From Caballeronia sp. dw_19 (GTDB lineage Bacteria > Pseudomonadota > Gammaproteobacteria > Burkholderiales > Burkholderiaceae), in contig NZ_JAAVUQ010000001.1 of assembly GCF_018449515.1 (NCBI RefSeq), positions 434,001 through 498,000 of the forward strand: 64,000 nt of DNA. Reading direction: 5' to 3'. The notes beneath the pieces were generated by a model. The model saw nothing but the letters and a program-made list of their open reading frames with translations, was not told where the DNA came from and did not search any database. The first letter of the stretch is position 1, and each line of letters begins with the position of its first letter. Of this stretch, positions 10,316 to 64,000 are shown piece by piece. The position numbers and the translations under genes are program-made.

Positions 10316-11133
10316 TGCTCGAAGTCGACGGCGCTTCGGCCTACGCCTACACCGGCGGCCACGCGTTCGAGCAGGATCGCCCCGTGGCCGTGTTCGTGCA
10401 CGGCGCACAGCACGATCACAGCGTCTGGGCACTGCAGACACGCTACTTCGCCCATCACGGCCTGAACGTGCTCGCCGTCGATCTTCCCGGTCACGGCCGC
10501 AGCGCGGGCCCGGCACGGCGAAGCATCGCAGCGCTCGCGGACTGGCTTGTCGCAGTAGTAGACGCGGCCAAGGTCAAAGAGGCAATGCTGATTGGCCACA
10601 GCATGGGCTCGCTGATTGCGCTCGATTGCGCAGCGCGCTATCCGTCGCGCGTCACCCGCCTTGCCCTGCTCGCCACCGCGTATCCGATGACCGTGTCCGA
10701 CTCGCTTCTCGATGCCGCACGCGATCGCGAACCGGACGCCATCGACATGGTCAACCAGTGGTCGCACTCGTCGATCGCCGCAAAACCGTCGTGCCCCGCG
10801 CCGGGCTTCTGGCTGCATGGCGCCAACCAGCGTCTGATGGAACGAGTGGCCGCACTGGGTGAGCCCCATCTCTTCCATACCGATTTCAACGCCTGCAACG
10901 CCTATGCGGACGGACTTGAACGAGCAACGGCGCTACGTTGCCCGGTACAGATCATTGCCGGCCGTCTCGATGCCATGACGCCACCCCGCGCCAGCCGGGC
11001 GCTGACGGACGCGATGAAACAAGCGGATGTCGCTGTCGAAACTGTCATGCTGGACGCCGGACACGCACTGATGAGCGAACAACCCGATGCGACCCTCGCC
11101 GCATTGTTCAGGTTTGCGACGCGACCGGTTTAG
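10312..11133 (+). CDS. Alpha/beta hydrolase
   Basis: A 273-residue alpha/beta-fold hydrolase. The nucleophile elbow GHSMGS has Ser about 97; the oxyanion region is FVHGAQHDHSVW near residue 25; the acid is probably in GRLDAMTPP and the base in DAGHALMSEQ near the C-terminus, so the triad is complete. It is translationally coupled to the sulfhydrylase gene. The partner gene hints at an ester or thioester substrate in sulfur amino-acid metabolism, but MetX-like function is not supported since the length and N-terminus differ. Confidence 0.85.
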   Translation: MMLEVDGASAYAYTGGHAFEQDRPVAVFVHGAQHDHSVWALQTRYFAHHGLNVLAVDLPGHGRSAGPARRSIAALADWLVAVVDAAKVKEAMLIGHSMGSLIALDCAARYPSRVTRLALLATAYPMTVSDSLLDAARDREPDAIDMVNQWSHSSIAAKPSCPAPGFWLHGANQRLMERVAALGEPHLFHTDFNACNAYADGLERATALRCPVQIIAGRLDAMTPPRASRALTDAMKQADVAVETVMLDAGHALMSEQPDATLAALFRFATRPV

Positions 11134-11319
11134 GTGACGGATCATTCCACGGCTCATGAACCCAGCTTAACTGCGCGCGCTCCACTGCGCCATCAGCCGA
11201 ATGGGAGGGGGTCTCCAACTGTTTGCAGATTGCTACGAATCGCAGTTGCACAGTGGGCTTAATCGCTGGAGAATGAATCTTGCTGAGCCAATGCTGCAAC
11301 CTGCTCGAAGGAGACTGTC

Positions 11320-54801: not shown

Positions 54802-54891
54802 GGAGAGATGGATGAGCGGTTTAAGTCGCACGCCTGGAAAGCGTGTTTAGGGTCAAACCTAACCGGGGTTCGAATCCCCGTCTCTCCGCCA
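54802..54891 (+). tRNA. tRNA-Ser (GGA)
   Basis: A 90-nt type II tRNA with a long variable arm and encoded CCA. The anticodon GGA lies in CCTGGAAAGC, and the T arm GGGGTTCGAATCCCC is intact. Its 3' part is the apparent integration target of the prophage that starts right behind it. Confidence 0.97.
54867..54891 (+). other. Probable attL core in the tRNA-Ser 3' end
   Basis: The integrase gene ends 69 nt downstream, the standard layout of a tRNA-integrating prophage. The phage-side duplicate (attR) should repeat part of this 3' segment outside the window, so the exact core cannot be set. Confidence 0.5.
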
Positions 54892-54959
54892 GAATACGCA
54901 ATGAAATCAAGTGGTTAGGTTTTGTGGTTGGCTAAAAATTGTCCTGCATTCACCCATGT

Positions 54960-56135
54960 TTACCCAGCTTTGGGCAGCTTTTCGACAGCATGGTTTGTAG
55001 AGAACTTCTCCACCGCCTTATCCCCCGCTTCGACATCAGCACTGGGCATCCAACGCGCGTAGATCTTCGCCGTAACGACCCAAGAGCTGTGACCCATCTG
55101 CTTCGCTACCCACATCGGCGGTTCACCGGCTGAGAGCATCATCGACGCGTATGTATGGCGCGTCTGATAGGGTTTTCGGTAAGCCACCTTCGCTTTCGTG
55201 ATTGCTCGGATCCATGCTGTGCGCACCGGGTTTTTCCCGCTCCAGGGAAGCTTGGTACGGGGATTCAGGAAGATGTATTCATTCGCGAGCAACGTCAACG
55301 GCTTCTGAGCCTCAAGTGCCTCGAGCGCCGGCGCCAGCAGCTTCACTATGCGGCGCCCTGCCTTGGTCTTCGTGTCCTCTGGCTCCTTCGCAGTCGTGGT
55401 CCAGGATCTTGAAATCCGGATTTCACTTCGATGCCAATCGATATCAGTCCAGCGCACCGCAGTAAATTCCGACGTGCGCAGTCCAGTCCAAAACGCGAAC
55501 TTAAACATATTGCGCTCCGCGAGCTCACCGCAGTTGGCGAGCAGCAGCTCGCGCTCTTCCGCAGAGAACGGATCTACGTCGTCATCTTCCTTCGGGGCTT
55601 GTGGAATCGTGTAGGTCCAACCGAACAGCGGATTAATGGCAATCAGCTCATCATTGACCGCGTCGTCCAGTGCAGCTCTTAAAACGCTCTGCCGATTTGA
55701 GAGCGTTTTATTCACGCATGTCATTTTGTCGAGCTCGTCGCGTATTAACTTTCGCTTGAGGTCAGACAGGGTTCCTTTCCCGAGTGCTTTAACCCACATG
55801 TTAATCGTCATCCGATAACCGTCGTACGTGCTGGCCTTTACGTGTTTCCGTTTCCGATCAAGCCAGTCTTCCAAATACGTGCCGACGGTTTCGACGTCAC
55901 CGGGTTGCTTCGCAAACTTGGCGGCGCGGGTCGAATTCGGGAAAGTCTCGTGATACACGAAACTGCCGTCATAAATCGCCTGCAATACCGCCTCGCGAAA
56001 GCGCGTGGCTTTCTTTATGTTGGCAGGCGTGGGCTCCCACCGGATCCGTTCGCGGCATCGTTCCTTCTGGTAATAGAAGGAGATCTCGATCGTTGTCGCG
56101 CTGGCGGCTTTGACACCGGATCCGTCTCGACCCAT
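54960..56135 (-). CDS. int: Tyrosine recombinase, DUF3596-type phage integrase
   Basis: Site-specific recombinase, 391 residues. The N-terminal arm-binding segment (DUF3596-like, about 1-60) and SAM-like core-binding domain (about 85-170) precede the catalytic domain: TGLRTSE (Arg), TKTKAGRR (beta-strand Lys), YQTRHTYAS (Arg-His, with Tyr replacing the usual first His, as in this subfamily) and the nucleophile in KIYARWM. GAGGAG precedes the ATG at 56135. It sits 69 nt from tRNA-Ser, its probable target. Confidence 0.94.
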   Translation of the reverse strand: MGRDGSGVKAASATTIEISFYYQKERCRERIRWEPTPANIKKATRFREAVLQAIYDGSFVYHETFPNSTRAAKFAKQPGDVETVGTYLEDWLDRKRKHVKASTYDGYRMTINMWVKALGKGTLSDLKRKLIRDELDKMTCVNKTLSNRQSVLRAALDDAVNDELIAINPLFGWTYTIPQAPKEDDDVDPFSAEERELLLANCGELAERNMFKFAFWTGLRTSEFTAVRWTDIDWHRSEIRISRSWTTTAKEPEDTKTKAGRRIVKLLAPALEALEAQKPLTLLANEYIFLNPRTKLPWSGKNPVRTAWIRAITKAKVAYRKPYQTRHTYASMMLSAGEPPMWVAKQMGHSSWVVTAKIYARWMPSADVEAGDKAVEKFSTNHAVEKLPKAG

Positions 56136-59100: not shown

Positions 59101-60105
59101 TCATAATTCCTCCGGAAAGCCGTCATGCGTCGCGCCGTCGAGCTCGCGGCCGGCGGCGCGCTTACCGACGCGGACCATGAGCGTCCTTCCATCGAGACGC
59201 ACGTTGCCAGCCGCCGCCAGCCGCTCGCCGTCGTCGAATGGCGGCAAATAGCCCTGGGACATCAGCGCGAACTCTCCGGACGGCAATACGCCTGCCGTGT
59301 CGCGCAGGCCGGCGCGTTCGCCCCAGTCTTCGTCAGTCCACTCGCCCCATTGCTTAAACAGGAACGGCACGCCTGCGTCCGCGCACTGGTCGCGCAGCGA
59401 TCGCACCCAACTCGGATGCATCGGCCGAGCGTCGGTGCCGGATTCGCCGCCGACGATCACCCAGTCGATCGCGGGTAAATCTGGCATGGAATTGCCGTCG
59501 TCGTCCTCGCATTCCTGGGTTCCGCTCAGCGGGTATATCTCGCCGTGTCCACCAATGTCGATCACATTCAGGTCGACCGGCCCGAGCAACGGTTCCATCG
59601 ATAGGAAGCGGACGGCTGCCGGCGTGTCGAGCAGCTTGGGGATATCGCGGTCCGCTTCTTCCTGATTGATGATCGTCGCGCCGAGCCAGACATTCGGCAT
59701 CGGCTCGGCCGGCCACATGGCACTCGCGTTACCGATGCGCTTGGTCAGGATCAGCCAATCGAGATTCGGCGTCTCGGCGATCAGTTCGACCAGGTCGACG
59801 CGCCATGCCGGATCCACTGCGTTATCGAACACGTCGGCGATGCTCGCGCAAAAGACGCGCTGGCGGCGACCGTGCGTGCCGAAGAACTCGGTGTGCGCGG
59901 TGTTCCATGCGATCGGCTTGCGCCAGTTCGCTGGCGACGTGCGGCGGCGCGGCGCGCCTGGTCCCCAGTTCGGCGCCGTGCCACCGCCAAAGCGCGAGTT
60001 CCGTGCCTCTGCATAGCAGTGGTCGCAACCAGGCCCGACCCTCTGGCAGCCTTCCCACGGGTTGAAGGTGTGGTCGGTCCACTCGATTTTGCTGTTTTCG
60101 CTCAT
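59101..60105 (-). CDS. Phage Gp37/Gp68 family protein (DUF5131)
   Basis: A 334-residue member of the Gp37/Gp68 (DUF5131) family. Cys at about 20, 27 and 30 (EGCQRVGPGCDHCYAEA) form a triad reminiscent of radical-SAM sites; the fold has TIM-barrel-like repeats (WLILTKRI, VWLGATI, FLSMEPLLGPV, WVIVGGESG). Activity is not established. Its first codons are duplicated 230 nt upstream (60297-60335). It ends 8 nt from the HEPN-like stop, so the two converge. Confidence 0.85.
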   Translation of the reverse strand: MSENSKIEWTDHTFNPWEGCQRVGPGCDHCYAEARNSRFGGGTAPNWGPGAPRRRTSPANWRKPIAWNTAHTEFFGTHGRRQRVFCASIADVFDNAVDPAWRVDLVELIAETPNLDWLILTKRIGNASAMWPAEPMPNVWLGATIINQEEADRDIPKLLDTPAAVRFLSMEPLLGPVDLNVIDIGGHGEIYPLSGTQECEDDDGNSMPDLPAIDWVIVGGESGTDARPMHPSWVRSLRDQCADAGVPFLFKQWGEWTDEDWGERAGLRDTAGVLPSGEFALMSQGYLPPFDDGERLAAAGNVRLDGRTLMVRVGKRAAGRELDGATHDGFPEEL

Positions 60106-62343: not shown

Positions 62344-62558
62344 GCTGAATGCACCTCGCAATAGTCGGGACCGCCCAGCGACGTGCAGCTGCAGGCCGGC
62401 GAGCCTGCGGGCTTCCACGTGGTTTCCAGGCCAATCCCATTCATGTCAATCACGCCGTTCGTGCCGATGGCGTGGTCATAGCCGGCGGCGCGCAGCTTCG
62501 CCGAGATCTCTTGATATGCGGGCGCCGACACCTCGAGCGTGGCGATGGTTCGCGTCAT
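62340..62558 (-). CDS. Small phage hypothetical protein
   Basis: A 72-residue protein (TIATLEVSAPAYQEISAKLRAAGYDHA, then CSCTSLGGPDYCEVHS). A recurring small protein in Burkholderia phages as far as I recall; function unknown. Three Cys near the C-terminus. Overlaps both neighbours by 4 nt. Confidence 0.65.
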   Translation of the reverse strand: MTRTIATLEVSAPAYQEISAKLRAAGYDHAIGTNGVIDMNGIGLETTWKPAGSPACSCTSLGGPDYCEVHSA

Positions 62559-63316
62559 GGCCTCTCCCGCGATGCGTGTCGGATCAGGGTCATGAACATG
62601 TTGTATTGAGCGGTGACCATACAGCCGCCAGCGATATCGGCAATTTGATCTACGGACAGCCCGCTCGCGGCTTGCGCATTGGCTGGCGGTGTAGCGAAGA
62701 AAGTCTTTGCCTCGGCTTCCGTAACCAGGTGACGTTCCATGTACATCTGGACCGCAATGTCGCTTACCGGCGCGCTAGCAGCTCGGTCGAGCCGTTCTAT
62801 TTCTGCAAGGATCAGTGCGCCGGCCTTGACGAGATTTCGACGCGAGTCTGTGGGTTTGCGCCAAGTTACGGCCCACGGCCACACCGCATCTGCATGCTGG
62901 AACATGTTGTAACGCTTCGACGGTGCATTCCCGGACGGCTCTGGGAGCACTGCGGCCGCGGTGTGGATTGCGTAATACGATGCCGCGAGCGCCATCTCGA
63001 AATTGGAATGCTCGTCGTCGTGATCCGGCGTCAAGCCTTCAACGGTCGTTTGCCGAACTCGTTCCGCTAGCACATCACGCGCTGCATCCGTCGTCGCGGC
63101 TTGCGATGCGCCGAGCAACATGCGCCCGGCCTTGATGAACGATTCACTAATACGATCGTCGCTAGGCAAGCACGCGTTTTTCCTGAACTCTTTAAAAACC
63201 CGCGCGATGAGGTCTATATTGGTCGCAGTGGTGGATGCCATTCTGAGTTCGGACACGCCCGCGCCCGCGCTGTTGCTGCCACCACCGGCAGGCGCATCGC
63301 GTTTAGATATGTGCAT
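62555..63316 (-). CDS. Phage hypothetical protein coupled to the reverse transcriptase
   Basis: A 253-residue protein. The middle block LAERVRQTTVEGLTPDHDDE and WPWAVTWRKPTDSRRNLVKA with AGALILAEIERLDRAA define a widespread phage family of unknown function. GGGAG precedes the ATG at 63316, which shares one base with the reverse-transcriptase stop (TAATG), so its translation should depend on it. Confidence 0.75.
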   Translation of the reverse strand: MHISKRDAPAGGGSNSAGAGVSELRMASTTATNIDLIARVFKEFRKNACLPSDDRISESFIKAGRMLLGASQAATTDAARDVLAERVRQTTVEGLTPDHDDEHSNFEMALAASYYAIHTAAAVLPEPSGNAPSKRYNMFQHADAVWPWAVTWRKPTDSRRNLVKAGALILAEIERLDRAASAPVSDIAVQMYMERHLVTEAEAKTFFATPPANAQAASGLSVDQIADIAGGCMVTAQYNMFMTLIRHASRERP

Positions 63317-64000
63317 TACTTACTCCCACGATAGGTTTTGGTGAGGTCAAAATTGACGGCATGGTTGCGGCGACGCACAGCGTTCGCAACATGCGCTCGA
63401 TCGTGATGGCCGCTCGGTGCCTGACCGAGCAGTCCGAAGTAACTATTCGAAACTGAAATGAAGTCAGCCTCACAAGTCGTTGTCACCCGACGAATGGCCT
63501 CCTTTACCGTTCGGCGGCGCGTGGAGCGGCTCCACGGCCTGATCACCTGGCCGACAAAATCAACACCGCGATCGATTGGCTGCAGGATCGTTTTCTTTGG
63601 ATTCAGCCGGACGCCGAGGCGCGCAGGAAGAAAGGCGTCGATGTCAGATAGGACTGTGTTCAGCCAGTCCGGCGATTCGTGGAGAAACAGAAAATCATCG
63701 ACGTAGCGAATGTAATGACGCGCGCGGAGCTGATGCTTAACGTGCTGATCGAACACATCGAGCAGAACGTTCGCCCCGAACTGGCTCGGCAGATTGCCGA
63801 TCGGCAGACCGAAATCCGAAGGCTGTTCCATCAGTCGCTTATGCAGCGGCACGCGCGCCATCAACCGGCGGTCGCCGCGGAACTCGAAGTCGGTGCGCGG
63901 GTCGTGCATCAGCACGAGCTCCGTCAGCGCACGCCAGAATGGCTCGCGGATTCGTGATAGCAGCAGCTCGAGCACAATCTTCTTGTCGATGCTGACGAAA
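63316..64000 (-). CDS. Reverse transcriptase, DGR-like, 5' end outside window
   Basis: About 228 C-terminal residues of an RNA-directed DNA polymerase. Visible motifs: the end of motif A (FVSID at the window edge), LPIGNLPSQ (the [ILV]GxxxSQ form that marks diversity-generating-retroelement enzymes, rather than QGxxxSP), the catalytic RYVDDFLFLH, LNPKKT and VDFVGQVI. The C-terminal ~60 residues are basic (RSTRRRT, SGHHDRAH). The GTG at 63975 is internal, not the start. No template or variable repeat is seen. Confidence 0.85.
   Translation of the reverse strand, partial: FVSIDKKIVLELLLSRIREPFWRALTELVLMHDPRTDFEFRGDRRLMARVPLHKRLMEQPSDFGLPIGNLPSQFGANVLLDVFDQHVKHQLRARHYIRYVDDFLFLHESPDWLNTVLSDIDAFLPARLGVRLNPKKTILQPIDRGVDFVGQVIRPWSRSTRRRTVKEAIRRVTTTCEADFISVSNSYFGLLGQAPSGHHDRAHVANAVRRRNHAVNFDLTKTYRGSK

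Follow-up and report, generated by a model that had tools for sequence, protein, structure and literature searches.

The reverse transcriptase (RT) at the right-hand edge of the analysed DNA is very probably the polymerase of an intact-looking diversity-generating retroelement (DGR) that operates by the mechanism proposed below. The cassette is part of an early operon that runs leftward, on the strand of the integrase, in a 65.8-kb prophage of Caballeronia sp. dw_19. A template repeat (TR), variable repeats (VRs) diversified at adenines, an avd-like gene, and lectin-like target genes are present beside the RT and, therefore, the enzyme is assigned to a DGR and not to a defence system. The DNA analysed, hereafter the window, is a stretch of 64,000 nucleotides (C1:434001-498000) in a genome of 9.06 Mb. 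On the minus strand, the order is target 1, target 2, target 3, avd, RT-15, TR, RT, early genes, and integrase (Table 1).

Table 1. Features of the DGR cassette and its prophage; positions past 64000 are window-equivalent, that is, contig C1 position minus 434000.
Feature	Position	Strand	Remarks
attL, 35-bp repeat	54864-54898		3' end of tRNA-Ser(GGA) 54802-54891
Tyrosine integrase	54960-56135	minus	phrog_1 1.2e-63
Next operon gene	62555-63316	minus	phage protein, function unassigned
DGR RT, C-terminal part	63316-64000	minus	open frame leaves window at its edge
RT motif RYVDD	63694-63708	minus	translation of RT frame
RT motif LPIGNLPSQ	63781-63807	minus	translation of RT frame
TR	64440-64545 (window-equivalent)	minus	106 nt, 30 A
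RT-15 RNA (Rfam RF03018)	64544-64730 (window-equivalent)	minus	160.4 bits, gathering 82
avd-like gene	64696-65076 (window-equivalent)	minus	126 aa; phrog_3206 1.1e-19
8-bp repeat array after VR3	65080-65103	minus	ends set by eye
Target 3	65091-65597 (window-equivalent)	minus	168 aa; Lcl_C 0.0068, under cut-off
VR3	65110-65215 (window-equivalent)	minus	in target 3
8-bp repeat array after VR2	about 65624-65647	minus	ends set by eye
Target 2	65651-66235 (window-equivalent)	minus	194 aa; Lcl_C 0.022, under cut-off
VR2	65661-65765 (window-equivalent)	minus	in target 2
Target 1	66235-66903 (window-equivalent)	minus	222 aa; Lcl_C 1.9e-7, under cut-off
8-bp repeat array after VR1	about 66259-66282	minus	ends set by eye
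VR1	66290-66395 (window-equivalent)	minus	in target 1
Candidate repressor	75706-76266 (window-equivalent)	minus	phrog_4 3.3e-10

Identification of the RT as a DGR enzyme

The RT had been called truncated in a preliminary description of the window, but the truncation is that of the window edge only; the gene is intact on contig C1, where its 370-aa core reaches position 64428 (C1:497316-498428) and the open frame continues beyond the core, across the TR, up to a GTG at 64677. Pfam RVT_1 matched the 227-aa window fragment at 1.2e-8 and the core at 9.3e-15, and the profile match to phrog_1423 was at 3.2e-100. The best match among solved structures was 8ub7 'Reverse transcriptase' (328 aa, 1.5e-30), which equals BPP-1 brt in length and which we take to be the BPP-1 bRT. 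The DGR-type motifs LPIGNLPSQ and RYVDD, recognized in that description, were confirmed, with the TR, VRs, Avd, and targets adjoining. An [IL]GxxxSQ-type motif is a mark of DGR RTs. Its form [IL]GxLxSQ was present in 23 of the 23 aligned DGR RTs and QGGxxSP in both group II RTs, and the window RT, which reads IGNLPSQ and has YxDD as well, was closest to DGR RTs. The chain of overlapping genes noted earlier was also borne out, as the ATG of the next operon gene overlaps the RT stop by one base.

It is highly improbable that the enzyme is a defence RT (retron, Abi, DRT/UG), a role in defence or exclusion having been offered in the preliminary description, or a group II intron RT. The matches to PADLOC models (fragment) and to TIGR04416 were generic to the RT domain, and the scores were far under the NCBIfam cut-offs (group II 69.5 of 300 bits, retron St85 44 of 235, Drt3a 37.2 of 200), whereas the DGR parts are all at hand. 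Retron, Abi, and DRT RTs were compared with the window RT by model scores alone, the tree being composed of DGR and group II RTs in 25 rows (12 of the 152 relatives described below, four named phages, the window RT, six other DGR RTs, and two group II RTs). In this tree, the two group II RTs of the host genome were separated from the 23 DGR RTs at 100/100, so that the clustering with group II maturases envisaged earlier as a contrary outcome was not seen. The lineage of the window RT did not form one clade because the long-branched RT of Bacteroides phage Bacuni_F1 falls inside it. The two group II intron RT/maturases lie elsewhere in the host genome (L002:820-2520 and L003:1105-2409; TIGR04416, 374 and 381 bits).

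Template repeat, variable repeats, and targets

That neither a target nor a template repeat had been seen nearby was a consequence of the window edge, the TR being located 440 nt past position 64000 and the three VRs beyond it. Reading to the right of 64000, as had been advised, revealed the Avd-like gene, A-biased TR/VR repeats, and lectin-like targets. The TR lies beside the RT, and the VRs differ from it mainly at its adenines, as expected of a DGR: 41 of the 43 mismatches between the TR and the three VRs were at TR adenines (15/15, 13/14, and 13/14 for the individual VRs, with P of 2e-10, 9e-8, and 9e-8), and 22 of the 30 TR adenines varied in at least one VR. VR2 and VR3 had one non-adenine difference each, that of VR2 at the repeat edge. 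A search of the 9.06-Mb genome at E 0.001 gave four matches in total, with none beyond the TR and three VRs. The replacement base was biased per VR, being mostly A to G in VR1 and VR2 and mostly A to T in VR3; across 323 VRs of relatives, the variance of the G share was 0.031 compared with 0.020 upon shuffling within position (0/300).

The avd-like product was identified as an Avd-type accessory protein by its phrog_3206 match, and its Pfam/NCBIfam matches, to bAvd (4.9e-4) and NF033474 (3.8e-6), were both under the curated cut-off. In target 3, VR3 corresponds to residues 129-162 of 168. A structure model of target 3, computed from the sequences of target 3 itself and of 34 relatives out of 40 listed (35 in total), had a pLDDT of 94.6, and a Foldseek search of a viral library with the model found matches to phage DUF1566 proteins. 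By the model and these fold matches, with Lcl_C under cut-off, the VR is placed at the C-terminus of a target predicted to have the C-type-lectin fold. Phage D3 Q9MBK5 was among the neighbours of the model, and a target family profile had its best match among solved structures in HbP1 (PDB 8q4e, 4.6e-8), mainly over the C-terminal 70 residues. A hydropathy scan found the targets to be without a membrane-type hydrophobic stretch, and 9 of 331 target C-terminal 170-aa stretches were above 1.6. As modelled, the targets look like single lectin domains that lack such a stretch. They vary, only 85 of 331 VR-bearing frames matching target 3 at 1e-5.

Distribution and activity of the lineage

Relatives were taken as the best 80 of 190 from a genome scan and the best 80 of 490 from a viral scan. 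Phage records and the locus of the window itself were added, which brought the number of loci to 169; of these, 167 had an RT and the other two were the RT-less phages Aurca01 and U9. They included 152 loci distinct in RT DNA (70 genome, 76 viral, and 6 other). The loci from the scans span at most 10 kb on each side of the RT, so that a VR in distant late genes would be missed; the TR search was extended to whole genomes for this host, Magia, and LPPA56. The A-bias filter was passed by 336 of 341 repeat matches. These 336 VRs in the 152 loci were all on the RT strand (the range covered being, for most loci, within 10 kb of the RT), and 4167 of their 4321 mismatches were at A (4223 of 4425 for the 341 unfiltered matches). 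There were two VRs in 89 loci, three in 45, four in 4, one in 7, and none in 7; five of the seven VR-less loci extend less than 720 nt upstream of the RT, and L077 and L150 extend more than 7 kb upstream, yet no VR was detected there. Targets occur in sets, with two or more in 136 of the 141 loci having 3 kb upstream, and a target was more than 1.8 kb from the RT in 42 loci, target 1 of the window prophage included.

Clusters of neighbouring open reading frames were identified by Pfam on one representative each. An S24-repressor cluster was found in 82 loci, in 80 of them upstream on the same strand, and two integrase clusters were found in 95 loci, downstream on the same strand in 83 and on the other strand in 12. 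The cassette was between repressor and integrase in 50 of the 55 loci with both. ERF, YqaJ, AAA, and ParB clusters also recurred, mostly upstream (12-16 loci each). Such a setting corresponds to that of the leftward operon of phage lambda.

A cassette from a genome of the host's genus was 100% identical over 2583 nt to one from Caballeronia calidae. Among 46 pairs of similar cassettes, 14 were 100% identical (mostly one genome in two collections) and five had no VR positions that could be counted. Across the remaining 27 pairs, the share of differing VR positions was 37-60% where the TR has A and 0-6% elsewhere in the VRs. The closest pair, L162/L164 (98.1% identical), differed at 24/52 such adenine-templated positions, 0/132 other VR positions, 0/92 TR positions, and 30/3021 positions in the rest; the corresponding values for L128/L130 were 43/84, 1/190, 0/94, and 112/2911. 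Such differences are the sequence signature of mutagenic retrohoming in nature, and the lineage therefore appears to be active in nature. For the window prophage itself, it is unlikely that the cassette is a fossil with VRs written long ago and a now inactive RT. The single non-adenine differences in VR2 and VR3 would fit such a history, and loss of a DGR does occur, as in Aurca01, but the RT, Avd, and RT-15 look intact, the VRs are nearly free of non-A changes, and the relatives are active.

Aurca01 (L014) has three VRs (1824-1929, 10361-10464, and 11049-11146) diversified at adenines of the TR of Cruim01 (L012). The two phages are near-syntenic, and Aurca01 is without the avd-TR-RT stretch at the matching place, representing a DGR fossil with its targets kept. 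Because diversified VRs are retained there without avd, TR, and RT, the targets may be useful alone.

An RT-15 RNA on the 5' side of the TR

The sequence preceding the TR matched the Rfam RT-15 covariance model over its full length and above the gathering score. Its 3' end overlaps the first 2 nt of the TR and its 5' end the last 35 nt of avd; the Rfam entry line says only 'RT-15 RNA', and here the RNA is exactly 5' of a DGR TR. In 398 host-family genomes, RT-15 was matched 29 times, in 28 of the genomes, and 28 of the matches were above cut-off; 14 control genomes gave 0 matches. Of the 28 above cut-off, 27 adjoin a TR followed by an RT, and in all of these 27, in which the RT is intact, the end of the RNA lay 0-5 nt beyond the TR start; the remaining one has an RT remnant only, and the below-cut-off match is without an RT. 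RT-15 was also 5' of the TR in all six lineage members scanned. The structure was tested on 56 diverse loci, which had been chosen by farthest-first selection among 104 of the 145; paired cells amounted to 92.5% compared with 81.6% in shuffled alignments. The covariation was 0.324 compared with 0.134 upon shuffling (0/500) and at most 0.071 in slid versions, the structure having been derived from the same sequences, which favours it over the slid versions. Pairing of RT-15 with the TR (RNAalifold) is not claimed, both sides being nearly invariant and the deviants uncompensated.

BPP-1 is the best-studied DGR. There, the TR directly adjoins avd (gap of 0 nt), and the 144-nt spacer between the TR and brt matches Rfam Phage_DGR, whereas the structured RNA of the window lineage is 5' of the TR; in BalMu-1, RT-14 is directly 3' of the TR. 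Therefore, the scaffold would be on opposite TR sides in the two types. The distance from the TR to the RT core was 5-40 nt (n=145), compared with 138-323 nt in five comparison DGRs and 39 nt in Bacuni_F1, and that from avd to the TR was 57-180 nt (n=86), compared with 0-31 nt in comparison DGRs and 128 nt in Bacuni_F1. Thus, a BPP-1-type structured spacer 3' of the TR was absent from the 145 loci, with RT-15 on the 5' side instead. A scaffold hidden in the start of the RT coding sequence was also considered and rejected, as there was no excess synonymous constraint there. RT-14 directly 3' of the TR was above cut-off in BalMu-1 and below the gathering score in VP585 and ACA1, and, therefore, RT-14 looks like a 3' DGR spacer RNA. 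Lagaffe and Bacuni_F1 had no Rfam match in a search of six comparison DGRs with E up to 0.1.

In 132 of 145 loci, the stretch from the end of the TR to the conserved core of the RT was free of ATG, GTG, and TTG, and 43 loci were without one inside the TR as well, which suggests that the RT starts within the TR or RT-15 or at an unusual codon. RT translation probably begins in the TR or RT-15, and the TR appears to overlap the RT reading frame, judging from these sequences. A TR/RT overlap is not unique to the window lineage: in VP585 and ACA1, too, the TR falls within the RT gene as annotated. The RT frame was open over -270..0 in 101 loci, and the other two frames in 2 and 1. This open frame across RT-15 is not read as coding because mismatches in the 120 nt before the TR were without codon periodicity (0.142/0.142/0.142; further upstream, 0.107-0.164), and the translation of RT-15 as an RT N-terminus was rejected on this pattern. 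Mismatches in the TR follow the codon periodicity of the target frame.

As RT translation probably begins in one of these two elements, it could be regulated by a structured leader, and RT-15 might accordingly govern RT translation from outside the template RNA complex. We regard this as rather unlikely. The close apposition of the RT-15 3' end to the TR start in all 27 loci with an intact RT argues against it, as do the Rfam RNAs of BPP-1 and BalMu-1, which adjoin the opposite end of the TR, the recruitment of bRT-Avd by the BPP-1 spacer according to a figure legend (PMC12875486, Fig. 1), and the lack of any sign of a hidden replacement scaffold in the 5' coding sequence of the RT.

Repeat array after the VRs and proposed mechanism

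BPP-1 has a stem-loop sequence after its VR, whereas the window lineage has an 8-bp array. An array of three or more TT-phased 8-bp units, with a consensus of about ATTYANYC, was present in 313 of 336 VR tails, from about 3 nt after the VR, compared with 8.1 in shuffles, the count being one of related loci and not of independent events. The array was found in 9 of 145 TR tails and was lacking in the other 136, and unit lengths of 6, 7, 9, and 10 bp in the VR tails gave counts of 0, 37, 14, and 6. No BPP-1-type stem-loop beyond chance was found 3' of the VR: ungapped stems (loops 3-8) in the 336 tails were no longer than in shuffles, by which a stem-loop was ruled out as the mark after the VR. 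Probably, it is by this array, and not by a stem-loop as in BPP-1, that the recipient site is marked. An 8-nt repeat of other letters follows the VR of Lagaffe (L216, a Faecalibacterium phage), with a lag-8 self-match of 13/16 (0/1000 shuffles), and arrays after the VR may therefore be a wider DGR trait; ACA1 and Bacuni_F1 had repeat signals at lag 7 after the VR.

By analogy with known DGRs, the RT and Avd would bind a transcript carrying RT-15 RNA and the TR, copying would introduce errors opposite adenines into the cDNA, and the VRs would then be replaced by this cDNA, resulting in the diversification of three binding proteins from one template. RT-15, with its consistent position 5' of the TR, would serve as a structured part of the scaffold, the corresponding part of BPP-1 being between the TR and RT. 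These findings link the RT-15 Rfam family with the TR in a single DGR lineage, and the two swaps relative to BPP-1 (a scaffold 5' instead of 3' of the TR and an array instead of a stem-loop) bear on cDNA priming and on how recipient and donor are distinguished. Both RT-15 5' of the TR and the 8-bp array after the VRs look new. RT-15 presumably stems from the source paper of the RT-n RNAs (which we take to be Weinberg 2017); in a literature search that had this paper outside its range, no publication linking RT-15 to DGRs was found for RF03018 or for 'RT-15 RNA' and its sisters.

Early-operon setting and possible role of the targets

A second att copy at 120633-120667 delimits the 65.8-kb prophage. 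The cassette is at C1:497.3-500.9 kb, and the terminase, portal, sheath, tape measure, and baseplate genes are on the opposite strand (C1:524.8-544.1 kb), 24-47 kb from the cassette, with the tail genes at 34-47 kb. The integrase, placed about 8.5 kb away in the preliminary description, is indeed 8.4 kb from the far end of the RT, but 7.2 kb from the RT gene. The suggestion of an unusual DGR made there holds, as lectin-type targets are in an early operon and the terminase-to-baseplate genes are distant on the other strand; a TR/VR pair beside a tail gene had been named as the mark of an ordinary DGR, and the TR/VR set exists, but away from any tail gene. The arrangement of BPP-1, with one annotated target that is a tail protein among tail genes, was thus not found; here, there are three targets distant from the tail genes. 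The cassette was scanned for promoters and terminators, with results no better than chance.

One plausible, though less likely, reading is an ordinary tropism-switching DGR, with targets that are virion adhesins encoded in the early operon and packed into the tail. Consistent with this, viral DGR targets of clades 1, 4, and 6 are mostly annotated as tail proteins, the others having unknown functions, according to a part of the survey by Roux (Roux 2021, PMC8144416), and the structural neighbours of target 3 include tail-fibre-like protein domains (ranks 1, 3, and 14). However, the targets are opposite in strand to the distant late genes, the whole Magia and LPPA56 genomes had no TR match below E 0.02 outside their early cassettes, and the VRs of relatives are all on the RT strand (the range covered being, for most loci, within 10 kb of it). 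Furthermore, in 5 of 6 comparison DGR phages, unlike in the window prophage, the cassette is next to tail or lysis genes (in BPP-1, mtd alone is annotated as tail).

The targets, with no membrane-type stretch and in an early/lysogeny operon away from the tail genes, would most likely work within the cell. It is quite possible that they do so soon after infection or in the lysogen and that they bind partners that vary, such as host defence proteins or competing phages. Cytosolic VR proteins that bind viral proteins in defence were suggested earlier for prokaryotic DGRs, in a passage of PMC10053308. More tentatively, the cassette may represent a widespread DGR lineage of temperate phages that combines a permuted template RNA (RT-15 5' of the TR, a TR overlapping the RT frame, and 8-bp arrays) with sets of small, self-mutating, soluble lectin-fold binders, which would work within the cell in early infection or lysogeny and counter host defences or rival phages. 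As several targets in an early operon are found time and again, phage DGRs would seem to do more than switch tail fibres.

Comparison with known systems

DGRs, multi-target DGRs, and DUF1566 targets are already known, with two-target and many-target DGRs and DUF1566 targets described in parts of PMC10743442 and PMC6642488. The window cassette resembles BPP-1 in its parts and their order (target, avd, TR, and RT), with an RT 29% identical, and the TR/VR differences of BPP-1 are likewise A-biased (18/22). Burkholderia phage Magia has an RT 68% identical, the same gene order, RT-15, and the same early-operon position; it differs in having two tandem targets and a distal one about 0.8 kb from the repressor, none of them matched by target 3 at 1e-5. 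A short passage of the Magia paper mentions a potential DGR and lists an RT, Avd, and target/IMH sequences for it, with no discussion there of location or RNA structure (PMC7883833). Pseudomonas phages Cruim01, Haboob, and LPPA56 and Shewanella phage QDWS have RTs 58-68% identical and two or three targets in an integrase-strand early operon, the third target of Cruim01 being distal. The targets of the Pseudomonas phages were 32-36% identical to target 3, and those of QDWS were unmatched at 1e-5. Bacuni_F1 is similar in having a DUF1566-annotated target, an avd-TR gap of 128 nt, a TR-core gap of 39 nt, and a position near a recombinase, but its RT is 32% identical and on a long branch, and it has no RT-15 match at E 0.1.

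A DUF5131 gene (59101-60105, 4.1e-92) is located on the RT strand between the RT and integrase of the window prophage, and a cluster with DUF5131-like N-terminal letters was found downstream of the RT in 12 relatives.
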